NCBI GenBank assembly: GCA_023262185.1
Contig: JALRDO010000010.1
Span: 1-64,000 of the forward strand
DNA: 64,000 nt
Direction: 5' to 3'
Origin: Flavobacteriaceae bacterium
GTDB taxonomy: Bacteria; Bacteroidota; Bacteroidia; Flavobacteriales; Flavobacteriaceae
This document shows, one piece after another, positions 5,130 to 31,320 of the stretch. Below the pieces are notes generated by a model. That model was not told where the DNA came from. It saw only the letters and a program-made list of their open reading frames with translations, and ran no database searches. Each line of letters starts with the position of its first letter. Positions within the stretch are counted from its first letter, which is position 1. The translations under genes were made by a program, and so were the position numbers.

Positions 5130-5474
5130 ATGAAAAAGTCTTTATTTACTTTCTTACTTGTTGCTGTTGCAACTGTTTCTTTCGCAAATGTTTCTTTAGT
5201 AAAATCTACAGGGATCTTTGAAAACGTTCTTACAGAGGACCCAACATTTGTTAGAAAAGGTGAAAAATTAGTAATCAGTTTCTTAAATGCTGATCTAGAG
5301 CCGGTTGAAATCCGTATCACAGACTCAAAAAACAACCTAGTTTTCGCTCAAGAATTCGAAGGTGATTTCATCGTTCAAAAGGCATTCGATTTCTCGAAAG
5401 CACAGCGCGATGACTATAAAGTAGTTGTAGCTTACAAATCAATCGCGGTTGGTCAAATTGTTGAGGTACAATAG
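5130..5474 (+). CDS. Small secreted protein of unknown function (114 residues)
   Basis: A clear signal peptide (MKKSLFTFLLVAVATVSFA) precedes a domain of about 90 residues with alternating short strands (KLVISFLNADLEPVEIRI, FDFSKAQRDDYKVVVAY). The pattern resembles the beta-sandwich of short secreted Bacteroidota proteins related to C-terminal sorting-like domains. No catalytic motif is visible and I cannot name a function. I chose the ATG at 5130 because the longer frame lacks a signal peptide and crosses the promoter. It is a single-gene unit with its own strong terminator at 5494-5524. Confidence 0.7.
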   Translation: MKKSLFTFLLVAVATVSFANVSLVKSTGIFENVLTEDPTFVRKGEKLVISFLNADLEPVEIRITDSKNNLVFAQEFEGDFIVQKAFDFSKAQRDDYKVVVAYKSIAVGQIVEVQ

Positions 5475-5493: not shown

Positions 5494-5524
5494 AAAAAAG
5501 CCCCTCATTTGAGGGGCTTTTTTT
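5494..5524. terminator. Bidirectional intrinsic terminator between the small secreted protein gene and htpG
   Basis: A near-perfect hairpin (stem core GCCCCTC/GAGGGGC, loop ATTT) is flanked by an A-run on the left and a T-run on the right. It can therefore end transcription from both convergent genes. Confidence 0.9.
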
Positions 5525-5534
5525 ATGGATTAAC

Positions 5535-7421
5535 TTACTTGATCATCTCTACACTTCTTGTAATAAAGTCTGAAAGCTCTTTACCTTTTAGAATACCCTT
5601 AGATAAGCGTGCGAGATCAACGCCTTGTTGTATGAGGCGTTTGCGTTTTTTTTCTGTTTTGGCTTCGAAGATCTCTCCGATTAGTGGGTGATTGGTATTT
5701 ACTACGAGATTGAACATATCCGGTATAGACCCTATTCCCATGATGCCACTTGACCCTGTTTGTTGCATGTCTTTCATTCTTCTCATGAATTCTGGTTCAG
5801 TAAGCATGAATGGGAGAGCCTCACTACTTAATCCTTCAGTTTGAACGATGTATCCAAAAGATTTGACGGTATCTTCTACTAGAGTCTTGAGTTCTTCTTG
5901 TTGTTTTTCATCCAGTTTAGATAGGTTAGTTTCTTCTTTCTTGATGAGGTTTTCAACGGCATCAGCATCCACTCGAGCAAATTGAACCTCCTTTAATTCA
6001 CTCTCTAGTTTTTGGATGAGATGCGGAGCAATAGGTGAGTCAAGAAGTAATACAGTGTATCCTTTCTGCTTGGCCTGTTCAATGTAGGTATGCTGCTGAT
6101 CAGGCTTTGTCGCATAGAGGTAAACAGTCTTGTTGTCTTTGTCTTTATGAAGTTCTTTTACACGCTCCTCCAGTTCTTCATAGGTGAGGTATTCTCCATC
6201 TGTGGTGGGGTAGAGGGTAAATTTTTGTGCCTTCTCAAAGAATTTTTCTTCGGTCAGCATACCGTACTCAATGACGACCTTTATGTCGTTCCATTTTTCT
6301 TCAAAGTCTTTTCGGTCTTCTTTAAATAGACTCTGCAATTTATCCGCTACCTTTCGGGTGATGTATGAGGTGATCTTTTTAACCGAACTGTCAGCTTGTA
6401 AATAAGATCTAGATACATTGAGCGGAATATCTGGAGAGTCGATCACCCCTTTCAGCATAGTCAAGAATTCTGGAACAATTCCCTCGACATTATCCGTGAC
6501 AAAAACCTGGTTTTGATACAGTTGAATGCGATCCTTTTGAATCGACAAGTCGTTGGTTAGTTTTGGAAAGAAAAGGATCCCAGTCAAATGAAATGGATAA
6601 TCTACGTTTAGGTGAATGTGAAAGAGGGGACTTTCAAATTGCATGGGGTAGAGCTCTCGATAGAAAGCCGTATAATCTTCTTCTTTAAGATCCGCCGGGG
6701 CTTTGGTCCATGCCGGATCGGTATTGTTAATGATGGCATCTACTTCTTGAGTCGGAACCGGATCGTCTTCTTTAGCTCCTTCGGGTTTGTCAAGGGTCTC
6801 AGTTCGTGTGCCGAATTTGATAGGGATCGGCATGAACTTGTTGTACTTGGTTAACAAGCCCTGAATTGTTGACTCTTTTAGGTATGAAGCGGCGTCTTCC
6901 GATATATGCAATATGATTTCAGTACCTCTTTCAGATTTGTCATGAGCTTCTAGTGAGAATTCTGGTGAACCGTCACAAGACCAGTGAACAGCTGGAGCAT
7001 CGGTATAGCTTTTGGAAATAAGCTCTACCTTGTCTGCCACCATAAAAGCTGAATAGAAGCCAAGTCCGAAGTGACCAATAATACCTGCGTCTTTAGCACT
7101 GTCTTTGTACTTGTCGAGAAATTCTTCAGCACCAGAAAAAGCTACCTCATTGATGTATTTCTTTACTTCTTCTTCGCTCATACCAATACCTTGGTCGATG
7201 ACGTGAAGCGTTTTGTTTTCTTTATTGATTTTCACCTCGATTATAGGAGTGCCATATTCGACCTTTGCCTCGCCAATGCCGGTGAGGTGTTTCAGCTTCA
7301 GGGTGGCATCTGTGGCATTAGAGATCAATTCTCTCAAAAAGATTTCTTGGTCGCTGTAGAGAAATTTTTTGATCAGTGGAAAGATGTTATCCACCGAAAC
7401 ATTAATTTTTCCTTTTTCCAT
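5535..7421 (-). CDS. htpG: Molecular chaperone HtpG (Hsp90)
   Basis: The protein (628 residues) is a full-length bacterial Hsp90. The N-terminal GHKL ATPase domain has NATDATLKL, DQGIGMS and GHFGLGFYS; the middle domain follows with FFPKL and LNVSRSYLQ; the C-terminal dimerisation domain ends at VEMIK. It refolds client proteins with ATP in the cytoplasm. The gene is monocistronic, facing the small secreted protein gene across a shared terminator. An inverted repeat at 7476-7497, 55 bases upstream of the start, is a candidate heat-shock operator. Length and motifs leave little doubt. Confidence 0.98.
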   Translation of the reverse strand: MEKGKINVSVDNIFPLIKKFLYSDQEIFLRELISNATDATLKLKHLTGIGEAKVEYGTPIIEVKINKENKTLHVIDQGIGMSEEEVKKYINEVAFSGAEEFLDKYKDSAKDAGIIGHFGLGFYSAFMVADKVELISKSYTDAPAVHWSCDGSPEFSLEAHDKSERGTEIILHISEDAASYLKESTIQGLLTKYNKFMPIPIKFGTRTETLDKPEGAKEDDPVPTQEVDAIINNTDPAWTKAPADLKEEDYTAFYRELYPMQFESPLFHIHLNVDYPFHLTGILFFPKLTNDLSIQKDRIQLYQNQVFVTDNVEGIVPEFLTMLKGVIDSPDIPLNVSRSYLQADSSVKKITSYITRKVADKLQSLFKEDRKDFEEKWNDIKVVIEYGMLTEEKFFEKAQKFTLYPTTDGEYLTYEELEERVKELHKDKDNKTVYLYATKPDQQHTYIEQAKQKGYTVLLLDSPIAPHLIQKLESELKEVQFARVDADAVENLIKKEETNLSKLDEKQQEELKTLVEDTVKSFGYIVQTEGLSSEALPFMLTEPEFMRRMKDMQQTGSSGIMGIGSIPDMFNLVVNTNHPLIGEIFEAKTEKKRKRLIQQGVDLARLSKGILKGKELSDFITRSVEMIK

Positions 7422-7475
7422 GGTGTTTGTGTTTTTCTTTCAGTGAAACCAAAAAGAATACCATCTTCATTGCGG

Positions 7476-7497
7476 CTGACAACATGACACCTGTCAG
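7476..7497. promoter_or_regulatory. Inverted repeat CTGACA-N10-TGTCAG upstream of htpG
   Basis: Six-base arms pair exactly, and a second TGACA sits between them (7485-7489), forming an alternative TGACA-CC-TGTCA. Its position, 55-76 bases before the htpG start, would suit an operator for a heat-shock regulator. This is inferred from symmetry and position only. Confidence 0.35.
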
Positions 7498-7530
7498 GCT
7501 AAAAAATTATTTAAAAAATGTTTAATTATT

Positions 7531-7562
7531 TTTTGTTTTAAATAAACAAAATGTATATTTGA
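7531..7562 (+). promoter_or_regulatory. Promoter-like TTG-N18-TATATTTG reading toward the hairpin and TetR gene
   Basis: A TTG in the T-run is followed after 18 bases by TATATTTG, an exact match to TAnnTTTG. The predicted transcript would start near 7567 and meet the hairpin at 7631-7665 about 65 bases later. Confidence 0.45.
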
Positions 7563-7566
7563 AGTG

Positions 7567-7670
7567 TTGTGGGAAATTTGCTATGAAAAAATTCTAGCAA
7601 CGATTTTGTTTATTTATTGGTTAGGTTGTTGAAAGCGCCCTCTCGAAGAATGAGAGGGCGCTTTCTATTA
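7567..7670 (+). ncRNA. Possible small RNA or structured leader of about 100 nt
   Basis: A promoter-like element ends at 7562 and a 14-bp perfect hairpin ends at 7665. The only reading frame between them is a trivial four-codon one. The unit could be an independent small RNA ending at the hairpin, or the attenuated leader of the TetR gene. The poor T-run after the stem argues against strong termination. No known RNA family is recognised. Confidence 0.3.
7631..7665 (+). terminator. 14-bp perfect hairpin, possible terminator
   Basis: The arms GAAAGCGCCCTCTC and GAGAGGGCGCTTTC pair perfectly around a 7-base loop. The following sequence (TATTAG) has only a weak T content, so it may be a terminator with a poor tail or another kind of structured element. 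Confidence 0.45.
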
Positions 7671-7743
7671 GAACCTATTTCTTCTCTCTATCCTCAGCGG
7701 TTTATTGTTTAGTTTATATTAGATTTGTGTAAACAAAATTCAC

Positions 7744-8409
7744 ATGGCAAAGACGCAAACATCTTCGAATAAAGAGCTTAAAAATGTCATACTAGCTGCC
7801 TATATGGATATAGTCTTGGAATACGAAACACATCCTAAATCAGTTTACAAGTTCTGTAAGACTGCTAAGATTGAAGAGGCTTCTTTCTACGAGTATTTTA
7901 ATAGTATGGATGCAGTTGCTACCTCAGTGTGGAACACCTTTCATGAGAATACCCTTAACACTCTTGAAAAGAGCAAAGAATTCGAAGAATTTTCGAATCG
8001 TGAAAAAGTGCTAACCTATTTATTTGCGTTTTTTGAAAATCTTACTTTAAATCGTTCTTATGTGGCTTTTGTGCTTTCAGAGGTTCAGTCTAATTGGAAT
8101 GAATTAAGAATATTGAAGTCTTTAAGATCTCATTATAAAGGTTTTATTGAAGGCTTAATTGCTGATGAAAATGAGCAGAAGTCAAATGGTATATTCAAAT
8201 ACAACAAGCAGTTTTTCGCAGAAGCGGCTTGGGTCCAGTTTTTAATACTGCTGAAGTTTTACTTAAATGATGATTCTAAGGGCTTTGAAAAAACAGATGT
8301 TTTTATTGAAAAGTCGGTCAATACCGTGTTTGATGTTTTTGACAACACTCCGCTTGAGAGTGCTTTAGATCTTGGAAAGTTTCTTTTTAAAGAATCTTTT
8401 AGCTTGTAG
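7744..8409 (+). CDS. TetR-like transcriptional regulator
   Basis: The protein (221 residues) begins with a TetR-type helix-turn-helix (about residues 10-60; FCKTAKIEEASFYEYFNSMDAVATSVWN), where FYEYF corresponds to the usual recognition-helix end. An all-helical ligand or dimerisation domain follows. The stop overlaps the GTG start of the ABC1-kinase gene by one base, so the two are very probably co-transcribed. It likely controls the downstream kinase and KAS III-like genes; the ligand, perhaps a lipid or acyl-CoA, is a guess from context. Confidence 0.8.
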   Translation: MAKTQTSSNKELKNVILAAYMDIVLEYETHPKSVYKFCKTAKIEEASFYEYFNSMDAVATSVWNTFHENTLNTLEKSKEFEEFSNREKVLTYLFAFFENLTLNRSYVAFVLSEVQSNWNELRILKSLRSHYKGFIEGLIADENEQKSNGIFKYNKQFFAEAAWVQFLILLKFYLNDDSKGFEKTDVFIEKSVNTVFDVFDNTPLESALDLGKFLFKESFSL

Positions 8410-9725
8410 TGAAGTCGACCGATCGCATTCCTACCTCAAAATTGCAGCGTACCTCAAAACTTGTAGGTACGGGAGTACGTCTAGGCGCTAATTATCTCAA
8501 ATATTACGGACAGCGTTTAGTTGATGATGAACAAACAGCAAAAGAGCGGTTAAATGAAAATAACGCCGCTGATATTTATGATTCGCTAAAGGATCTTAAA
8601 GGAAGTGCTTTAAAGGTTGCTCAAATGTTGAGCATGGAGCGCAATATGCTTCCTCAGGCCTACGTTGAGCGTTTTTCGCTATCTCAGTTTTCTGTTCCTC
8701 CTCTGTCAGCACCACTCGTTCGAAAGACTTTGAAGCGCTATCTTAATGAAGATCCAGAACGTATATTTGACAGCTTTGACTACCAGGCCATGAATGCTGC
8801 TTCTATTGGCCAGGTACATCGCGCCTCTTCAGACGGAAGAGCTCTTGCCGTGAAGATTCAATATCCCGGAATCGCCGAAAGTATCCAAAGCGATTTGGCC
8901 CTGGTTAAGCCGATCGCATTGCGCATGTTTAATTTGGGAGCGAAGGAGTCTGAGAAGTATTTTAAAGAGGTTGAGGCCAAATTGCTCGAAGAAACCAACT
9001 ACGTTATCGAATTAAATCAGAGTAAGGAGATCACTCAGGCTTGTGCTCATATTGAAGGAGTCTCTTTTCCTGAGTACGTAGAGTCTTTATCTTCCGAAAG
9101 AGTGCTAACCATGACCTACGTCAAAGGAAAACCCCTAGGAGAGTGGGTAAAATCAGCATTCGAACAAGAAGTAGGTGATAAGATTGGCCAGGCCCTATGG
9201 GATTTTTACATGTTTCAGATTCACGGATTGCGCAAGGTTCATGCTGATCCGCATCCAGGAAATTTTCTTATCGGAGAAAGCCACGAATTAATCGTCATTG
9301 ACTTTGGATGTATAAAAGAACTCTCTGAAGATTTTTATGTTCCCTATTTTGAATTAACGGATCAGGCCACTCAATCGAACGAGTCATTATTTATTGATAA
9401 ACTTTACGAGCTAGAAATGCTGGTACCTTCAGATGGCCACAAAGAAGTCGCTTACTTTACCAAACTGTATAAGGATTTGTTACAACTTTTCACTTCGCCC
9501 TTTAATCGAGACTCCTTTGATTTCGGGGACCCTACATTTTGGGAGGGCATCGGAAAGATGGCTGCTTTTTTTGCCAATGACGAGCAATTGAGAACGATGA
9601 ATGCCAATCGAGGTTCTAAACATTTTCTATACATGAATCGCACCTTTTTTGGGTTATACAATCTGCTTTACGATCTAAAGGCTAAGGTTGACACTAAGGC
9701 CTTTCAGCGTTATATAATCGATTAA
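8409..9725 (+). CDS. ABC1/AarF/UbiB-family atypical kinase
   Basis: The protein (438 residues) has the family motifs in order: the KxGQ region (here KVAQ at 69-72), the A-rich loop MNAASIGQVHRA, the ion-pair Lys in LAVKIQYPG, the catalytic HADPHPGN and the metal-binding VIDFGCIKEL. Family members are ATPases or kinases supporting isoprenoid-quinone and other lipid biosynthesis. The start is GTG, overlapping the TetR stop. The Gly-to-Ala change in KxGQ is unlike the best-studied homologues. Neighbouring a KAS III-like gene, it may act in a lipid pathway, though the substrate is unknown. Confidence 0.87.
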   Translation: MKSTDRIPTSKLQRTSKLVGTGVRLGANYLKYYGQRLVDDEQTAKERLNENNAADIYDSLKDLKGSALKVAQMLSMERNMLPQAYVERFSLSQFSVPPLSAPLVRKTLKRYLNEDPERIFDSFDYQAMNAASIGQVHRASSDGRALAVKIQYPGIAESIQSDLALVKPIALRMFNLGAKESEKYFKEVEAKLLEETNYVIELNQSKEITQACAHIEGVSFPEYVESLSSERVLTMTYVKGKPLGEWVKSAFEQEVGDKIGQALWDFYMFQIHGLRKVHADPHPGNFLIGESHELIVIDFGCIKELSEDFYVPYFELTDQATQSNESLFIDKLYELEMLVPSDGHKEVAYFTKLYKDLLQLFTSPFNRDSFDFGDPTFWEGIGKMAAFFANDEQLRTMNANRGSKHFLYMNRTFFGLYNLLYDLKAKVDTKAFQRYIID

Positions 9726-9755: not shown

Positions 9756-10763
9756 ATGTATACTTCTTTTATAAACGGACTCGGCCACTACGTGCCTGAA
9801 AATCGTATCACTAATGATGACTTGTCACAGTGGATGGAGACAAGTGATGAATGGATCCAAGAGCGCACGGGTATCGAGGAGCGCCGTTTTGCAGTAAAAG
9901 GAGAGGATACGACGACCTCAATGGGGGTTAAGGCAGCCAAAGTGGCTATTGAACGTTCTACCGTTTCAAAAGACGATATTGATTTTATCATTTTTGCCAC
10001 CCTGAGTCCTGATTATTACTTTCCAGGACCGGGAGTGTTGGTTCAGCGAGACCTAGAGATTGGAACCGTTGGTGCATTAGATGTCAGAAACCAATGTTCT
10101 GGCTTTGTATATGCGCTCTCTGTAGCGGATCAATTCATTCGAAGCGGCATGTATAAAAACATATTGGTTATTGGCTCTGAACTGCACTCACACGGGTTAG
10201 ATATGACGACGAGAGGGAGATCGGTGTCTGTAATTTTTGGAGACGGTGCAGGGGCAGCTGTGGTATCAAGAAGTGACAGTGCTCAAAGCCAGATATTATC
10301 TTCTCACTTGCATTCTGAGGGTCAGCATGCAGAAGAGTTGGCGCTCATTGCCCCAGGTATGGGTAAGCGATGGGTCTCGGATATTCTCGCAGAAAATGAC
10401 CCCAATGACGTGTCTTACATGCCTTATATGAACGGTCAATTTGTCTTTAAGCATGCCGTTGTTCGTTTTGCTGAGGTCATTCACGAAGGCCTTTCACACA
10501 ATGGCCTCACCACTGAAGATATTGATATGTTGATTCCTCACCAGGCCAACTTACGTATTGCGCAATTCATCCAAAAGAAGTTTAAGTTGAGCGACGACCG
10601 GGTCCATAACAACATCATGAAATACGGTAACACCACCGCTGCATCGATTCCAATAGCACTCACAGAGACCTGGGAACTGGGTAAGATCAAAAGGGGAGAT
10701 CTTGTCGTCTTAGCCGCGTTCGGCTCTGGATTTACTTGGGGAAGTGTGATTATGCGGTTCTAA
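9756..10763 (+). CDS. FabH-like 3-oxoacyl-ACP synthase III family protein
   Basis: The protein (335 residues) has the thiolase-fold KAS III catalytic triad: C114 in RNQCSGFVYA, H262 in IPHQANLRIAQ and N292 in KYGNTTAASIP, plus FGDGAGAAVV. FabH condenses acetyl-CoA with malonyl-ACP to begin fatty-acid synthesis; related enzymes use longer acyl chains or make other condensation products. It lies 30 bases after the ABC1-kinase gene rather than in a fab/plsX operon, so it may be a specialised paralogue. The gene symbol is withheld. Its 3' end overlaps the convergent symporter gene by 14 bases. Confidence 0.85.
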   Translation: MYTSFINGLGHYVPENRITNDDLSQWMETSDEWIQERTGIEERRFAVKGEDTTTSMGVKAAKVAIERSTVSKDDIDFIIFATLSPDYYFPGPGVLVQRDLEIGTVGALDVRNQCSGFVYALSVADQFIRSGMYKNILVIGSELHSHGLDMTTRGRSVSVIFGDGAGAAVVSRSDSAQSQILSSHLHSEGQHAEELALIAPGMGKRWVSDILAENDPNDVSYMPYMNGQFVFKHAVVRFAEVIHEGLSHNGLTTEDIDMLIPHQANLRIAQFIQKKFKLSDDRVHNNIMKYGNTTAASIPIALTETWELGKIKRGDLVVLAAFGSGFTWGSVIMRF

Positions 10764-24787: not shown

Positions 24788-25489
24788 ATGAGCAAACAGG
24801 TCACCTCGATTACCTTCTTTAGGTTTACTACACCGAGGTCAATGATCTGGGCGTTCTTTATGATGCAATTCGCTCGAGCGCCTTTACGAAAAGTGAAGGG
24901 TCTTGAGCGTTTTTTTTTGATGGGTACCGGAAAGAAGGGGTTTAGTCCAAACCCAGACTGGTCTACTTATGCTTTATTACAAATATGGAATTCGCAAGAA
25001 GAGGCGGATTATTATTTCTCAAGTCATCCATTATATTCTTCGTATGTGCGAAATAGTGAAGAGATCTTGAGAGTTATGATGCGTAATATTAAGGCGCATG
25101 GTGCTTGGAACGGGCTCAATCCTTTTCAGAAGTCATCTCAGCTGGATCCTGAGAATCCTTACATCGCAGCCATAACTAGAGCGACTATTAAGATACGTTT
25201 TCAACTTAAATTCTGGCGAGCTGTTCCCTATACCCAACGCTTCCTAGACACTACCACTGCCTTGAAATTTACCAAGGGGATAGGCGAGGTACCCTTTAGG
25301 AATATGGCTACTTTTTCAATTTGGGAATCTGAAGAAGACCTGAGACAGTTCGCATATACTGATAAGCATCATAAAAAAGCCATTGCTCAAACAAAGTCTC
25401 TAAATTGGTATAGCGAGGAACTCTTTAGCCGCTTTCAGCCGTATCAGATATACGGTACTTATCTCGGACAATCTATCGAGTTGTCTTAG
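24788..25489 (+). CDS. CrtA-like carotenoid oxygenase (probable 2-hydroxylase of myxol synthesis)
   Basis: The protein (233 residues) belongs to the spheroidene monooxygenase (CrtA) family: SITFFRF, FFLMGTGKKGFSPNPDWSTYA, LQIW near residue 60, ATIKIRFQLKFW and ATFSIWESEEDLRQFAY. A crtA-related gene from Flavobacterium P99-3 was reported to encode a carotenoid 2-hydroxylase of myxol biosynthesis, which fits the cruF and crtD-like genes next door. It follows aconitase on the plus strand and overlaps the end of cruF by 4 bases tail to tail. Activity is inferred from family and context. Confidence 0.82.
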   Translation: MSKQVTSITFFRFTTPRSMIWAFFMMQFARAPLRKVKGLERFFLMGTGKKGFSPNPDWSTYALLQIWNSQEEADYYFSSHPLYSSYVRNSEEILRVMMRNIKAHGAWNGLNPFQKSSQLDPENPYIAAITRATIKIRFQLKFWRAVPYTQRFLDTTTALKFTKGIGEVPFRNMATFSIWESEEDLRQFAYTDKHHKKAIAQTKSLNWYSEELFSRFQPYQIYGTYLGQSIELS

Positions 25490-26151
25490 CGCATTAAAGC
25501 GAGACTGCCAAAGAATAATGCCTGTGCAAGATAAATGTGCATGGCAATACTTAAGGATGTTTCGGGTTTGTCTTTCTGTGCCTTCTCTACTGTGAAATAA
25601 ATGAATTGAAAGAGAAAGCCAAATCCAAACCAACTCCAATAATTGGATGCTGGAGGACTCGGTATAAAAGTCCAGTAGTCAAAATGAGGAGCTAAAAGTT
25701 CAAGAAGTGCATCTAGGGCAACCATCATACTCGCCCCGATAACCGCAGAACTAAGAGTATAATGAAAGCGACCACTTACTGCTTGGGCCATCCGTGCTGT
25801 TATCATGGTTAAGACAGCCCAAAAAATTCCTATAATAATAGGAATCCCATCAATTTTCGGCCCTAGATTTTCTCCGTAACTATAGGTTCCAAAAAACCAA
25901 CCATAATGCACCCCTAGCCATTCGACAAGCATTCCCGCCGAGAAAAATAGGCCTAGTAGTATCCATTGATAGCGCTTTGTAATAGGAAAGTAGAGTACGA
26001 AAAATCCAAACGAAGCAATCAGATTGAGCACCGTTTTGGTGACAAACCAGTCTTGAAATCCAGCTGCAATCCCTAAGGCTCCGGCTACATGGGGGAGCCA
26101 GATAAAAAGAAGCACCTCTTTGGTGACAATTTTAGTCGATGTTGAAGTCAT
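25486..26151 (-). CDS. cruF: Carotenoid 1',2'-hydratase, CruF family (DUF422)
   Basis: The integral membrane protein (221 residues, about seven helices) has the DUF422 motif GVHYGWFFGTYSYGENLGPK followed by GIPIIIGIFWAVLT and later ALDALLELLAPHFDYW. CruF adds water across the psi end of gamma-carotene-type pigments. It is not a CrtYcd lycopene cyclase, since the PxExxFF-type motif is missing. It is the last gene of the crt operon, overlapping the crtD-like gene by 20 bases and the crtA-like gene by 4 bases on the other strand. Confidence 0.85.
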   Translation of the reverse strand: MTSTSTKIVTKEVLLFIWLPHVAGALGIAAGFQDWFVTKTVLNLIASFGFFVLYFPITKRYQWILLGLFFSAGMLVEWLGVHYGWFFGTYSYGENLGPKIDGIPIIIGIFWAVLTMITARMAQAVSGRFHYTLSSAVIGASMMVALDALLELLAPHFDYWTFIPSPPASNYWSWFGFGFLFQFIYFTVEKAQKDKPETSLSIAMHIYLAQALFFGSLALMR

Positions 26152-27619
26152 TTGCGATTAGCTCACTGACGATCTTTCCTGATTGCAGACATAAGGGTAT
26201 GCCTCCACCAGGATGCGACGATCCTCCACAAAAGTAAACGTTTGAGAGTGCACTTCTATGATTGGGGTGTCTTAAGAAAGCCGAAAATTGAGAATTACTT
26301 GCCGCTCCGTAAAGCGCTCCCCTGTAGGATTGAGTAGATTGTTCTATGCCTCTTGGATCAAGTATGTGTTCGACTGTAATTAAAGCAGCTAGGTCGCAAT
26401 TAAGGATTCTGCTCAATTTGGCGATGATACGCTCACGACTAAGCGCGATAAGTTCATCCCAATTCTGCTCATAATTGCCAGGTGCATTGATCATTACAAA
26501 CCAATTTTCACAGTTATCAGGGGCATCACTAGGGGTGTGCTTAGAGGTGATGTTAACATACACGGTAGGATCTTCGTGAAGCGTTTTGTCTTCGAATATA
26601 GCCTTAAACTCTTCTGAGTAAGCGTCTGAAAAGAAGATGTTGTGCAGGTCTAATTGTTCAAAAGTTCGGGCTATGCCCCAATAAAAGATTAGGGCACTAC
26701 TTGATCGTTCTTGTCTTAGAGTACGTTCTGGTGCTTTTATGGTGGGTAACAGTTTTCTATAGGTAGAAACAACATCCATATTGCTAACCACCACATCAAA
26801 ATGATACTCTTTTAGCTTTGTTTTTAGGCCCCTGACACGTTTTTGATTGGAGTTCAAAATGATTTTCTCGACTCCTTCGTCAAGATGAAAACTCACTCCC
26901 TGTCTTTGTGCGAGTCGATATAAGGATTGTGAAATCTCGTGCATTCCGCCCTTTGGATAGAACGTACCAAAATGCATTTCAAGATGGGGGATAAGTGACA
27001 TGATCCCCGGTGTCTTGTAGGGTGAGCTTCCATTGTATGTAGCATGTCTTGAAAAAAACTGAAGACTCTTGGGGTTCCTAAAATACGACTTGAGGGTTTT
27101 GAAAAGGTTTTTGTGAACGTCTAATGAGGGTAGTTTTAATACCGCCTTAAGGGTTTTAGGCGAACAGTAGGTCTGTAAGCGATGTAGGGATTGCTCAATG
27201 AAGAGCGGGCTTGTAAGTTCGTATTTTAGCGCGCTATTATTTAGAAAGTCTACTACGCTGTTAGGGTCCTCATTAAAGGTGGTGCTAAATTTTTTGACGA
27301 ACACCTCTCTATCTGCTGATGCTTCAAAGCGTGTTCCGTCTTCCCAAAAGTAGTTACATACATTTTCTTTTCGAAGGTAGTTGAAATGATCTCTTGGATG
27401 CTCCTTGAACAATACAAAAAGCTCATCCACAAAATGTGGCATGGTGAATAGCGACGGACCTAAATCGAAACGGTATCCTTCTAGGTGCAGTGCATGGAGT
27501 TTGCCTCCGGCATACGAATTAGACTCAAAAACGACTACTTCATGTCCTTGCGCTCTTAATCGAAGTGCAGTGGCCAGACCGGCTATACCAGCTCCGATAA
27601 TGCCGATTTTAAGTGCCAT
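26132..27619 (-). CDS. crtD: CrtD-like carotenoid 3,4-desaturase (phytoene desaturase family)
   Basis: The protein (495 residues) has an N-terminal FAD-binding motif (IIGAGIAGLATALRLRAQGHEVVVFE), the family pattern YRFDLGPSLFTMPH, YPKGGMHEI in the centre and the C-terminal GGSSHPGGGIPLCLQSGK. Two CrtI-family genes are in this operon; this one is assigned to CrtD (1-hydroxycarotenoid 3,4-desaturase) because it adjoins cruF and differs from the CrtI at 28911. The order of the two could in principle be reversed, but the CrtB-adjacent copy better fits CrtI. Confidence 0.8.
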   Translation of the reverse strand: MALKIGIIGAGIAGLATALRLRAQGHEVVVFESNSYAGGKLHALHLEGYRFDLGPSLFTMPHFVDELFVLFKEHPRDHFNYLRKENVCNYFWEDGTRFEASADREVFVKKFSTTFNEDPNSVVDFLNNSALKYELTSPLFIEQSLHRLQTYCSPKTLKAVLKLPSLDVHKNLFKTLKSYFRNPKSLQFFSRHATYNGSSPYKTPGIMSLIPHLEMHFGTFYPKGGMHEISQSLYRLAQRQGVSFHLDEGVEKIILNSNQKRVRGLKTKLKEYHFDVVVSNMDVVSTYRKLLPTIKAPERTLRQERSSSALIFYWGIARTFEQLDLHNIFFSDAYSEEFKAIFEDKTLHEDPTVYVNITSKHTPSDAPDNCENWFVMINAPGNYEQNWDELIALSRERIIAKLSRILNCDLAALITVEHILDPRGIEQSTQSYRGALYGAASNSQFSAFLRHPNHRSALSNVYFCGGSSHPGGGIPLCLQSGKIVSELIANDFNID

Positions 27620-27626
27620 AAAGGGG

Positions 27627-28070
27627 TTATTTGAAATATTTGCGAGGTACGATAAGCATACCGAAATTTTCCCCTTCTTCTTTTCCTAGATGCTTGTGAT
27701 GAATCTTATGCGCTCGTCTTACTCCTCGAGCATAGGCGTTATCAATGGTTCTTAGCCATTTGAAGCGTTGATGAATAAAAATATCATGGACTACAAAATA
27801 GGCGATACCGTAAGCCAAAATTCCAAAGCCAATCGGAAATCCGATCCAGAATACTTCGTCAGCAGTCATTAAAAAACTCATGCTCAATACAGCAAAGAAC
27901 AAGAAAAAGGCATCGTTTCGCTCGAACCAAGAGTCATGATCTTTCTGATGATGATCCTTGTGAAGTATCCATAATATACCGTGCATGATATATTTATGGA
28001 TGAACCATGCCATAAATTCCATGACTAAGAATGTAAGTATAAAAACAGCGATCCAAAGAAGTGCGTCCAT
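27627..28070 (-). CDS. crtZ: Beta-carotene 3-hydroxylase CrtZ
   Basis: The protein (147 residues from the ATG at 28070) is a di-iron membrane hydroxylase. Histidine clusters are HKYIMH, HKDHHQKDH, HDIFIHQRF and HKIHHKH, separated by membrane helices. CrtZ adds a 3-OH to beta-ionone rings. A longer frame begins at 28100 inside crtB; the ATG at 28070, 4 bases after the crtB stop, gives the normal N-terminus MDALLWIAVF. Its presence implies that a ring-forming cyclase exists elsewhere in the genome. Confidence 0.92.
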   Translation of the reverse strand: MDALLWIAVFILTFLVMEFMAWFIHKYIMHGILWILHKDHHQKDHDSWFERNDAFFLFFAVLSMSFLMTADEVFWIGFPIGFGILAYGIAYFVVHDIFIHQRFKWLRTIDNAYARGVRRAHKIHHKHLGKEEGENFGMLIVPRKYFK

Positions 28071-28074
28071 GGTA

Positions 28075-28914
28075 TTAGATGCGTTGTAATTTAAATTCAA
28101 GATACGATTGTGCTAGCAATCCAGCTTTTTCATAATTCGGAACGCGTATGCGTTTATTCTTTATTTCTAAAGGAGGCGTGGCTTTTAGGCGGTCTAGCAG
28201 TCTTTTGTAATATCGGTAGGCCGTATAAACCCCAAAACGAGATCCGACCGGAAGTTCTTTAATCCCTTTAAACCCTTCTTCAAAGTCATTTTCAATCTCA
28301 CGAATGATGATATCTTTAGAAGCTTCATCTAGCGCTTCTAGGTTCGCGTCCGGAAAGTAGGTACGCCCTAAGGATTCATAATCTGCTTTTAGGTCTCTTA
28401 AAAAGTTCACTTTTTGAAAGGCTGAACCTAAAGACATCGCTGGTGATTTGAGCGTGTTGTATGCGCCTTCGTCTCCGTCTAAAAATACCTTTAGACACAT
28501 AAGACCCACCACATCAGCTGATCCGTAGATGTACGCTTTGTATTCTTCTTTAGTGAGATACTCTGTTTTATGCAGGTCTAATTCCATACTCCTCATAAAC
28601 GAGTCTACCAATTCTTTTGGAATTCCGAATCGATGATAGGTCATCTGAAAGGCATTGAGAATGGGGTTCAGGCTTATTTTGTGCGTTAAACTGGCTTCGA
28701 GATCTTCTGAAAATCGTTTAAATAATACCTCTTTAGGAAAATCGTGAAAACTATCTACGATCTCATCCGCAAAGCGCACAAACCCATAGATATTGTAGAT
28801 ATGCGAACGAATCTCCTTTGAAAGCATACGCGTAGCGAGAGAGAAGGAGGTGCTGTATCGCTTAGTGACAAGCTCACTGCATTGTTGGCTTACTTCGTCG
28901 TATAATACTTTCAT
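28075..28914 (-). CDS. crtB: Phytoene synthase CrtB
   Basis: The protein (279 residues) has both Asp-rich motifs of squalene/phytoene synthases: FADEIVDSF and NFLRDLKADYESLGRTYFPD, plus STSFSLATRML near the N-terminus. It joins two GGPP molecules to phytoene, the committed step. It overlaps the end of crtI by 4 bases and is followed by crtZ. It is slightly shorter than enterobacterial CrtB, as is normal for flavobacterial forms. Confidence 0.93.
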   Translation of the reverse strand: MKVLYDEVSQQCSELVTKRYSTSFSLATRMLSKEIRSHIYNIYGFVRFADEIVDSFHDFPKEVLFKRFSEDLEASLTHKISLNPILNAFQMTYHRFGIPKELVDSFMRSMELDLHKTEYLTKEEYKAYIYGSADVVGLMCLKVFLDGDEGAYNTLKSPAMSLGSAFQKVNFLRDLKADYESLGRTYFPDANLEALDEASKDIIIREIENDFEEGFKGIKELPVGSRFGVYTAYRYYKRLLDRLKATPPLEIKNKRIRVPNYEKAGLLAQSYLEFKLQRI

Positions 28915-30377
28915 GACTCTTGCTCTTGAATGAGTTGTGCAACGAGCTTTCCTGAAATCAGAGCGGGTGGTACTCCAGGGCCAGGAACGGTCAATTGCCC
29001 AGTGAAAAATAAGTTATTTACTTTTTTCGATTGCAATTTAGGACGAAGAAATGCGGTCTGTCTCAGGGTGTTAGCTAATCCGTAGGCATTACCCTTAAAC
29101 GAATTGTAAGCTTCTACAAAGTCTTTAACACAAAAGCTCTCAACAAACTCGATGTGCTGGCTTAATTCTTGACCCGAGAAGTGTTCAAGACGTGCTATTA
29201 ACAACGAAAAAAAATGATCTCTTAGTTTTTGGGTGTCTTCGATGCCTGGCGCAATTGGGATTAAGAAGAATCCTGCTTCTTTGCCTTCAGGAGCCATACT
29301 GGTGTCTGTAATGGACGGAAAGTTAGCGTAGAATAGCGGGTCTGACGGCCATTCAGGATGGTCATAGATGACTCTTGCGTGTTCTTTGAAATCGGTATCG
29401 AAGAACAAATTATGATGCAATAATTTTTTATCGAGTTTGGTATTGAATCCTACATAGAACAGCAATGATGAAGGCGCAAAGGTTCTTTTGTTCCAATACG
29501 CTTCTGAATATTGTCGATAGCGCTCTGGAAGCAGTGTTTCACTGTGATGATAGTCTGCCCCGCTTAATACATAATCAGCCGTTATGTGTTCTCCATTGCT
29601 CAAGGTTATTCCGGTTGCTCTGCCTTTAGCATCGATGTTGATGTTTTGTACAGCATTTGAAGTGTGGATTTGAACCCCAAGGCCTTCTGCAACCTTTTGC
29701 ATCCCCTTTACAATCTCGTACATTCCTCCCTTTGGATGCCATGTTCCAAGTCCGTAATCTGCATGGTTCATGAAAATATAGAAGGAAGGGGTATTCTCAG
29801 GTTTTGCGCCCAAGAAAAGTACCGGAAATTCAAGTGCAGAACGCAATTCAGGCGATTTAAAGAACTTTTTCACTTCATCGCCCACTGACCTTAAGAACTG
29901 ACCTACGCGCACCACGGTTTCTGGAGTAACCAATTCAAGAGGAGACTTTCCGGGCCTTAAAACGATCTTCTTGATCGCAATGGTATAATTGGTCGCAGCT
30001 TTTTTGAGAAATGCTTTTAGCTTATTGCCGCTACCCGGTTCAATTTGTTCGAAAGCCTCAGCAATTCCTTCAACGGATGCCGCTATAGGAAGTGTGCGGT
30101 CTTTGAATACGATTTGATAGCCTGGATCTAAGCGTTCAAGTTCGTAGAAATCAGAGGCTGAGTGCCCAAAATCATTAAAATAATCTTCGAATATATCGGG
30201 CATCCAATACCATGACGGTCCCATATCGAAAGTGAATCCGTTTTTTACCAATTGTCTACAGCGTCCTCCAATAGTCTCATTCTTTTCGTAAATACTAACC
30301 TCGTACCCTGCTTTTGCGAGGTGCGATGCAGCAGATAAGGAAGAAAATCCAGACCCGATTACGGCAACTTTTTTCAT
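28911..30377 (-). CDS. crtI: Phytoene desaturase CrtI
   Basis: The protein (488 residues) has the FAD-binding GSGFSSLSAASHLAKAGYEV, then NGFTFDMGPSWYWMP, LGTWHPKGGMYEIVKGM, and the C-terminal TGQLTVPGPGVPPALISGK characteristic of CrtI-type desaturases. It converts phytoene to lycopene at the membrane. It follows the regulator with a 4-base overlap and precedes crtB with the same overlap, so regulator, desaturase and synthase are translationally coupled. Confidence 0.93.
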   Translation of the reverse strand: MKKVAVIGSGFSSLSAASHLAKAGYEVSIYEKNETIGGRCRQLVKNGFTFDMGPSWYWMPDIFEDYFNDFGHSASDFYELERLDPGYQIVFKDRTLPIAASVEGIAEAFEQIEPGSGNKLKAFLKKAATNYTIAIKKIVLRPGKSPLELVTPETVVRVGQFLRSVGDEVKKFFKSPELRSALEFPVLFLGAKPENTPSFYIFMNHADYGLGTWHPKGGMYEIVKGMQKVAEGLGVQIHTSNAVQNINIDAKGRATGITLSNGEHITADYVLSGADYHHSETLLPERYRQYSEAYWNKRTFAPSSLLFYVGFNTKLDKKLLHHNLFFDTDFKEHARVIYDHPEWPSDPLFYANFPSITDTSMAPEGKEAGFFLIPIAPGIEDTQKLRDHFFSLLIARLEHFSGQELSQHIEFVESFCVKDFVEAYNSFKGNAYGLANTLRQTAFLRPKLQSKKVNNLFFTGQLTVPGPGVPPALISGKLVAQLIQEQES

Positions 30378-31276
30378 GATTCTAGAATCGATGAAAAATG
30401 TGAGATAGACTCATAAGCTTTGACGTAGTCAAAAGCGAGTTTGGTTTGCATGCGTTGGGTTTGATATCCTAAGATTGAGAGTTTGCACCCTGGTCTATAT
30501 ACCGTTGCATCGAAGGCCTTTAGGTACTTCTCAATTTCATCGTTTTGAGGACTTACGGTGAAATAAGATACAAAGTGTATATTCTTATAATACCCTAGGA
30601 GTTCTTTTAGGCTGTCAAGAGTATTGGCTTGACCCAAATAAATCGATCGATATCCTTTAGAGACGATTTCATAATTGATAAATAAAAGTCCTACCTCATG
30701 TATTTCACCTTCTGGAAGGTATAATACAAAGACCTCGTCCTCTTGCGTTGGAGGTAATTTTTGAAAACGCTCTGTGTGAATATAGATCTTTTGTTTGATT
30801 AAGCTCGTGATGAAGTGCTCATGTGCCGGGCTTATGGCTTTCGCCTGCCATAAGAGTCCGAGTTCATTCATCAGTGGTACCAAGACATCATTAAACATCT
30901 CTTTAAAACTGCGTTCGGCGACAAGGCTATTGTAGGTGTTGTAGAATTGAGCCGTATCAAAATTAACCATCGCGAGCTTAAAAGCATTTACTGCATGATG
31001 CTTTTCACTGTTCTTGGCAATAATTTCATTTACAATGACCGGGATCTGACTGTCTTGAAGTATTGCAATTTTAGAGATCTTGTATCCGTTATGGTAAAGA
31101 AGCGTAATGTTTAAGAGTTTTTGAAGACTATTGAGACTGTAGGTCCGGATGTTTGTCTCTGTTCTTTCAGGGCTCAGTAGGTGATATCTTTTCTCCCAAA
31201 TCCTGATCGTATGCGCCTTGATGCCCGAAAGATTTTCTAAATCTCGTATACTGAAATACTTCTTGCTACTGTTCAT
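30374..31276 (-). CDS. MerR-family regulator with cobalamin-binding domain (CarH/LitR-like)
   Basis: The protein (300 residues) has a MerR helix-turn-helix at the N-terminus (FSIRDLENLSGIKAHTIRIWEKRY), a helical bundle with the Wx9EH motif (W143, E153, H154) and a Rossmann-like domain with E191-I-H193-E-V-G196, a variant of DxHxxG in which His193 would be the lower cobalt ligand. Wx9EH is characteristic of adenosylcobalamin photoreceptors such as CarH, which repress carotenoid genes in the dark. It is the first gene of the crt operon and probably autoregulates it. Light sensing is inference. Confidence 0.85.
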   Translation of the reverse strand: MNSSKKYFSIRDLENLSGIKAHTIRIWEKRYHLLSPERTETNIRTYSLNSLQKLLNITLLYHNGYKISKIAILQDSQIPVIVNEIIAKNSEKHHAVNAFKLAMVNFDTAQFYNTYNSLVAERSFKEMFNDVLVPLMNELGLLWQAKAISPAHEHFITSLIKQKIYIHTERFQKLPPTQEDEVFVLYLPEGEIHEVGLLFINYEIVSKGYRSIYLGQANTLDSLKELLGYYKNIHFVSYFTVSPQNDEIEKYLKAFDATVYRPGCKLSILGYQTQRMQTKLAFDYVKAYESISHFSSILES

Positions 31277-31297
31277 TCTTCATTGAAAAATCTTAAA

Positions 31298-31320
31298 CAA
31301 AAGTAGCTAAAAATAGTTAA
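31298..31320 (-). promoter_or_regulatory. Promoter and candidate operator of the regulator-crt operon
   Basis: On the minus strand TACTTTTG (31298-31305) matches the -7 consensus, 21 bases before the regulator ATG. Overlapping its upstream edge are two direct repeats, written on the plus strand as TAGCTAA (31304-31310) and TAGTTAA (31314-31320), 10 bases apart. Repeats over the promoter would suit autorepression by the MerR protein. Confidence 0.35.

Follow-up and report, generated by a model that had tools for sequence, protein, structure and literature searches.

To our knowledge, few small RNAs (sRNAs) of the Flavobacteriaceae have been worked out, which is our impression rather than the outcome of a survey. 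sRNAs derived from the 3′ untranslated regions (3′ UTRs) of mRNAs constitute a general class. Members of the Flavobacteriaceae are commonly found in soils, in the sea and in fresh water, and the Rfp RNAs are small RNAs described from this family; one of them, Rfp18 of Flavobacterium psychrophilum, is presented as conserved beyond its species, and its deletion is reported to lower two protease mRNAs (PMC9723704). The intergenic sRNAs of B. thetaiotaomicron, exemplified by GibS and BTnc231, are described as short and AT-rich, with a start and a terminator of their own and with exposed regions (PMC7366714). A further RNA motif of the Flavobacteriaceae is represented by the Flavo-1 RNA (RF01705). 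The light regulons of CarH and LitR are described with a MerR-type regulator heading a carotenoid operon and with folE and photolyase- or SDR-like genes (PMC9758184). Examples of such systems are CarH/CarA of myxobacteria and class II LitR of Pseudomonas. The operators given for CarH are 11-bp direct repeats (PMC9304148), and those given for class II LitR have the form TGTACA-N12-TGTACA (PMC9758184).

Here, we analysed a window, the whole stretch of 64,000 nucleotides from a Flavobacteriaceae bacterium, in which an sRNA of about 105 nt is predicted within the gap 7422-7743 between the divergent htpG and TetR-type genes (Table 1). The predicted RNA would resemble GibS and BTnc231 in the general traits listed above, but no sequence relation to them was found; the Rfam models BTnc049 (gathering score 81.9) and BTnc231 (80.4) give 21.2 and 17.3 bits here. 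With Rfp18 and the other Rfp RNAs it shares the family of origin, and it differs from Rfp18 in that the latter is said to pair via its third stem-loop (PMC9723704). As in 3′-UTR-derived sRNAs, its core and terminator are found in the 3′ UTR of TetR-ABC1 in another genus, whereas the RNA of the window has its own promoter and 5′ hairpin. The resemblance to the CarH/LitR regulons lies in a carotenoid operon headed by a MerR-type regulator, in folE and in the SDR- and photolyase-like genes, the last two recognised here by eye; the repeat of the present locus is TGTTTA-N18-TAAACA and neither of the two operator designs above. The Flavo-1 model does not match this RNA; its hit at 1173-1248 of locus L051 (minus strand) reaches 58.9 bits, is separated from the core by about 1.2 kb and was the sole Rfam match at gathering score in 20 loci. 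Searches of the window and these 20 loci against Rfam 15 returned no family at gathering score over the sRNA stretch, and the known families with sub-threshold hits across the intergenic stretch, among them STnc300 (27.8 bits against 80, on the other strand) and RsaE (21.7 against 79), were rejected. No description of this RNA or of the 30-bp repeat was found in the literature searched or in Rfam 15. The best reading is that of a new sRNA family of a known kind, with Rfp18 set beside it by description only.

The initial annotation of this DNA had pointed to a consensus-like promoter followed by about 65 nt and a perfect 14-bp hairpin, placed between divergent genes, and all of these were confirmed, with htpG on the minus strand and the TetR-type open reading frame on the plus strand. 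The promoter, consisting of TTTG, an 18-nt spacer and TATATTTG, fits the consensus TTTG / TAnnTTTG given for the primary sigma factor of the Bacteroidota (PMC7366714). The −7 part of this consensus is given in PMC9723704 as well, and the −33 part is reported in PMC7366714 as not found in Flavobacterium johnsoniae. A promoter scanner of the E. coli type did not have the sRNA promoter among its calls. On the other side of htpG, a GC-rich hairpin with a T run (5497-5524) lies between that gene and a convergent open reading frame ending at 5474; by eye, it is an ordinary terminator.

Table 1. Positions of the predicted sRNA, its parts and the associated genes and repeats in the window.
Feature	Position	Strand	Basis or remark
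htpG	5535-7421	-	divergent neighbour of the predicted sRNA
Inverted repeat TGTTTA-N18-TAAACA, putative operator	7519-7548	+	exact match; over the sRNA promoter
−33 element TTTG	7532-7535	+	sequence; consensus as given in PMC7366714
−7 box TATATTTG	7554-7561	+	sequence
Predicted sRNA, about 105 nt	7566-7672	+	both ends predicted, 5′ from the −7 box and 3′ from the hairpin
5′ hairpin	7566-7601	+	arms 7566-7575 and 7592-7601; fold and arm-swap test
Conserved loop-side TTTGCTATGAAA of the 5′ hairpin	7577-7588	+	
Core TTTGTTTATTTATTGGTTAGGTTGTTGA, 28 nt, candidate seed	7605-7632	+	predicted unpaired except the last two bases
Terminator-like hairpin, 14 perfect pairs	7631-7665	+	GAAAGCGCCCTCTC 7631-7644, loop 7645-7651, GAGAGGGCGCTTTC 7652-7665
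Second exact copy of the repeat	7706-7735	+	spans the TetR −7 box
Own −7 box of the TetR gene, TAGATTTG	7720-7727	+	sequence
TetR-type regulator (TetR_C_23, PF17931)	7744-8409	+	
ABC1-type atypical kinase (PF03109)	8409-9725	+	in genus g126 the core can sit in its 3′ UTR
KAS III (FabH subfamily, TIGR00747)	9756-10763	+	
Carotenoid operon	25486-31276	-	headed by the CarH-like MerR gene
CarH-like MerR regulator (MerR_1 + B12-binding_2)	30374-31276	-	head of the carotenoid operon; candidate regulator
Repeat variant TGTTTA-N18-TGAACA, one mismatch	31270-31299	-	over the merR start

Conservation within the genus of the window provides the cleanest evidence, because the RNA itself was not used to find the loci. 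Searching with the TetR protein located the locus in each of the 11 genomes, and the DNA upstream was then read; the TetR proteins of the other ten genomes are 47-91% identical to that of the window, one of them being split into two matches. The 28-nt core is identical in all eleven, and the −7 box, TTTGCTATGA in the loop and a hairpin after the core are likewise kept in every genome, the box reading TATATTTG in ten and TATCTTTG in one. The hairpin varies between clades of the genus while the core is constant. A layout kept to this degree is not put down to chance. Absence of the hairpin from close relatives had been named beforehand as evidence against an RNA at this place, and the hairpin was found after the core in each of the eleven. 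The proposal of an independent RNA is well supported by the conservation of −7 box, core and hairpin, from which its expression is predicted.

A search of 100 genomes of the family with 18 nt of the core, allowing at most 2 mismatches, matched in 75, mostly by chance, since a control pattern matched about as often; use was therefore made solely of the exact copies from outside the genus, 15 in number. The loop motif precedes the core in all 15 genomes that carry such a copy. A scan of named genomes with an exact pattern returned at least 118 stretches, and the genera among the matches listed include Maribacter, Flagellimonas, Muricauda, Aequorivita, Croceitalea, Galbibacter, Robiginitalea and Eudoraea. 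The pattern containing loop and core gave a set of 139 entries, four of which were dropped as second starts inside the same copy; the resulting 135 members comprise 88 among the matches listed in the named-genome scan and 47 from other genomes. Since the gathering pattern contains both elements, the invariance of core and loop among the 135 members is partly by construction, and the independent statement on the invariance of the core comes from the genus, with 11 of 11. Of the 135, 132 have TAnnTTT[GA] no more than 75 nt ahead of the loop.

A sequence-only model built from 31 members (R1) was run on 299 genomes of the family and matched in 164 at E <= 0.01. Strong matches (E <= 1e-8, counted by hand) were obtained in 78 genomes and not in the other 221, and matches between about 1e-7 and 0.01 were taken as unproven unless their neighbourhood was supportive. 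In samples of the order (196 genomes) and the phylum (198 genomes), which partly consist of the same family, the best match listed from outside the family had E = 1.9e-4, and none of the non-family loci returned has the neighbourhood of the sRNA, the one exception being locus L109, where a weak HtpG piece lies at a distance of about 1.2 kb. No convincing relative was seen outside the family in the order and phylum samples.

In the predicted RNA a 5′ hairpin, whose loop is conserved and whose arms covary, is followed by the exposed core UUUAUUGGUUAGGUUGUU and then by a hairpin of terminator-like form. Folding of 7567-7672 yields -35.4 kcal/mol, compared with a mean of -20.9 (sd 2.9) among its shuffles (z -4.94), and folding of 7566-7672 yields -36.6 kcal/mol (z -4.71); 0 of 200 shuffles were as good in either case. 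The arms of the 5′ hairpin were further compared by swapping them between members. Own pairs have a mean duplex energy of -10.55 kcal/mol and swapped pairs of -6.42, and the observed mean was reached by 0 of 20000 permutations among 70 cluster representatives of 128 distinct members, a figure that is not a probability because the members are related and not independent. The own partner was the single best in only 4 of the 70 and within the best ten in 49.

The core is essentially unpaired in single folds of the window, L035 and L058. In L014 a different pairing of the 5′ half is preferred, in which the core is not unpaired, and in RNAalifold of the 11 genus sequences alone the core is paired with the 5′ region instead. 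L065 agrees in the 5′ hairpin; its sequence is cut inside the terminator (z -1.67, 10 of 200 shuffles as good). By eye, ATAATCA, which forms the 3′ arm of the 5′ hairpin, seems able to pair instead with a TGATTAT immediately ahead of the core in L065, L060, L055, L049 and similar loci, and this alternative pairing, which does not occur in all members, is a possible switch. The hairpin of the window is followed by TATTAG, with no clean T run, and was not among the calls of the terminator scan. A run of at least four T is present somewhere 15-60 nt past the core in 127 of the 135 members, which is a loose measure that may include letters of the stem. The 55 nt after the core fold at a mean of -19.9 kcal/mol, compared with -7.0 for one shuffle each, and the value is lower than that of the shuffle in all 135.

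With one exception, the members adjoin htpG, TetR, ABC1 or KAS III (134 of 135), and they do so in several arrangements. The RNA lies between htpG and TetR in 84 members, between htpG and KAS III in 19, between ABC1 and KAS III in 6, after ABC1 with no downstream match in 14 and by htpG with no downstream match in 10; one member is placed before TetR only, and one has none of the four genes within 1.5 kb. These counts suggest that the RNA stays at the locus, yet independently of whether TetR follows. In g126, the largest other genus sampled and probably Flavobacterium, a 24-nt core with at most 2 mismatches was found in 18 of 199 genomes. In 14 of the 18 the core comes after the stop codon of ABC1 and runs into a hairpin, and is thereby located between stop codon and hairpin of that mRNA as a 3′-UTR form (L383, L385, L387, L388 and L390-L399); of the other matches, three lie about 1.2 kb before KAS III and one is without any of the genes. 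The 3′-UTR loci of g126 together with the standalone loci indicate that the core exists both as an independent gene and as a 3′ UTR.

The 30-bp inverted repeat that overlies the sRNA promoter of the window recurs, in the strict form TGYTYA-N18-TAAACA, upstream of the sRNA in 122 of the 135 members. Counted on the 139 entries, the strict repeat is present in 126, a relaxed form in 4 more and neither in 9, whereas shuffled upstream sequence gave a mean of 0.02 entries with the repeat. The 11 genomes of the genus contain 79 exact sites, compared with 3 for a reversed control pattern. In 104 of the 122 repeat-bearing members an additional half-site-like [ACT]TTAACA precedes TGTTTA, mostly by 5-8 nt; it was not seen by eye at the sRNA of the window.

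Seventeen further sites, all those of three genus genomes, were read, with protein domains tested for the G000 or G008 copies only. Three of them lie between genes for rhodopsin and beta-carotene dioxygenase, three by folE and glutathione peroxidase, three by a Rieske protein and three before a GHMP kinase that is mevalonate-kinase-like and under the NCBIfam cut-off. Two more lie by a protein without Pfam match that adjoins SDR- and photolyase-like frames (named by eye), one by a fasciclin protein and two by a zinc-ribbon protein and other frames. At L279, L280 and L286 the rhodopsin and beta-carotene dioxygenase genes flanking the repeat are divergent (domains tested for L279). As the repeat is common to the sRNA, carotenoid and rhodopsin genes, the RNA may belong to a light/carotenoid regulon.

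Among 107 TetR starts, 35 carry the 30-bp repeat, 2 a 31-bp copy and 70 neither by the pattern used, and the repeat was found at 0 of 104 ABC1 starts and 0 of 87 KAS III starts. Where the core sits in the 3′ UTR of ABC1 (10 of the 14 loci of g126, and G041 and G174), the repeat precedes TetR in 11 of 12 loci with the relaxed form allowed, so that the core would there, too, come under the same sign. Two KAS III-type loci of g126 have no repeat.

A candidate for the protein that reads this repeat is the CarH-like MerR regulator of the window. Its gene heads an operon encoding phytoene synthase, two oxidoreductases of the desaturase type and a Caroten_synth protein, along with a protein of 157 aa that has no Pfam match and looks hydroxylase-like by eye. 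In the 30 best-matching merR loci of the family the variant TGTTTA-N18-TGAACA is found at the same place in 29 and the exact form in none, and this site may be kept for coding reasons because one half overlaps the start codon (ATGAAC). The protein reaches 66.5 bits with the NCBIfam CarH model, against a cut-off of 400, and PF02310 was not found in it, though MerR_1 and B12-binding_2 are present. PF02310 was also tried as a marker of the regulator and rejected, its above-cut-off matches falling in frames of 427-934 aa that are probably MetH. Sorted by hand, MerR is present in 77 of the 78 genomes with a strong match to the RNA, and this co-occurrence says little because 264 of all 299 genomes have MerR anyway. 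G051 is the one strong-match genome without MerR, and its sRNA (L046) is also without the repeat; there is no clean correlation between MerR and repeat, since L059 lacks the repeat while its genome, G073, has MerR. The published operator designs of CarH and LitR are not matched by the present repeat, and MerR is for this reason treated as a proposed regulator with TetR as the main alternative.

The presence of a real small regulatory RNA at this locus is very probable from the sequence comparisons. The explanation we consider likely is that the locus encodes an independent sRNA of about 105 nt which would act in trans and whose promoter would be gated by the repeat, with MerR as the likeliest regulator. 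The layout, conservation, arm covariation, synteny and shared repeat are read from the DNA, and from them we infer transcription, the two ends, action in trans, the regulator and the response to light. Two observations lower confidence in it slightly: every merR site has the variant form, and the majority of TetR starts are without the repeat. The RNA would be transcribed from its own sigma-A-type promoter with a start at about 7566, and transcription would end by the hairpin 7631-7665; the 5′ hairpin would present UUUGCUAUGAAA and leave the core UUUGUUUAUUUAUUGGUUAGGUUGUUGA exposed, with the terminator following.

Action in trans is most likely, with the exposed and near-invariant core as the contact surface, and contact would probably be made by short base pairing with mRNAs, or possibly with a protein. 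When the 11 genomes of the genus were searched for 18-nt antisense matches with at most 3 mismatches, 36 sites were obtained outside the RNA gene, compared with 42 for the control; none of these sites was common to the whole genus, and a few recur within one clade. An extended antisense target was thus not found in these genomes, which suggests that pairing may involve a short seed, or that a protein may be the partner. The promoter is probably gated by the 30-bp repeat, and an unoccupied repeat would allow the RNA to be made. The presence of the same repeat at the TetR-ABC1 operon and at carotenoid, rhodopsin, isoprenoid and pterin genes suggests that the RNA would be made along with a light/carotenoid programme. 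If the CarH-like MerR of the window, as the likeliest regulator, works like CarH or LitR, the RNA would probably be made in the light.

Other explanations have to be weighed against an independent sRNA acting in trans. The initial annotation had also offered the RNA as a leader of the TetR-ABC1-KAS III cassette, and a riboswitch or attenuator in the 5′ leader of the TetR-ABC1 operon would suit the 84 of 135 members that lie directly between htpG and TetR and in sense with TetR. This proposal found no support in the window, where the TetR gene has its own −7 box and repeat past the hairpin. Furthermore, adjacency to TetR is not universal, being limited to these 84 members and the one before TetR only; 39 of the 135 instead have KAS III on the downstream side or ABC1 on the upstream side (in 19, KAS III is the closest downstream gene among those tested, and 20 follow ABC1). 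The hairpin after the core is kept, and no antiterminator pairing was noticed, short of a systematic search. Regulation by a leader is on these grounds very improbable. The conserved piece could alternatively be a cis-acting terminator or 3′-end stability element, with the standalone copies as relics, as the position of core and hairpin just past the ABC1 stop codon in 14 of 18 g126 matches would permit. The standalone form, however, possesses a promoter and a repeat of its own, its 5′ hairpin has covarying arms and a loop that is conserved, the 19 members with KAS III as nearest tested downstream gene do not have TetR there, and in the genus the stem of the terminator varies while the core is constant, so we regard a purely cis-acting element as improbable.

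The loop contains ATG AAA, and the conserved ATGA, by which the members were partly selected, resembles a start region, so that translation of a tiny peptide might be what matters. In 31 members the distance from the loop ATG to the core, modulo 3, was 0 in 13, 1 in 3 and 2 in 15, and the possible products of 3 to 31 residues have no common sequence; a coding function was rejected because the frame is not kept and the peptides share nothing. Moreover, no base of the core varies within the genus, not even at third positions, and we give a micro-ORF very little credence. A reading that leaves the RNA itself untouched assigns the repeat, as operator, to the adjacent TetR and not to MerR. The repeat spans the −7 box of TetR, and TetR is the commonest downstream neighbour. 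The repeat of the same length at 29 of 30 merR starts, the exact copies by rhodopsin, folE and photolyase-like genes and the 70 of 107 TetR starts without a repeat argue against it, and control by TetR, the main alternative to MerR, seems rather unlikely.

Returning to an sRNA gated by the CarH-like MerR, one may tentatively go further and propose that it forms the post-transcriptional arm of a CarH-like light/carotenoid regulon, with its core delivered from its own gene in some genera and from the 3′ UTR of TetR-ABC1 in another, under the same operator. This is conceivable, and falls somewhat short of what we would expect to hold. If true, it would be a light-controlled sRNA in the Bacteroidota that joins rhodopsin and carotenoid genes with the functions of ABC1 and KAS III. 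An RNA whose core is invariant across many genera, a candidate operator and a candidate photosensory regulator are found together in one window, which makes a light response via RNA directly testable. The own-gene and 3′-UTR forms of the core offer a natural case for the interconversion of sRNA genes and 3′-UTR RNAs, and it is the link to a light-type regulon together with these two genomic forms that makes this RNA of the Flavobacteriaceae interesting.
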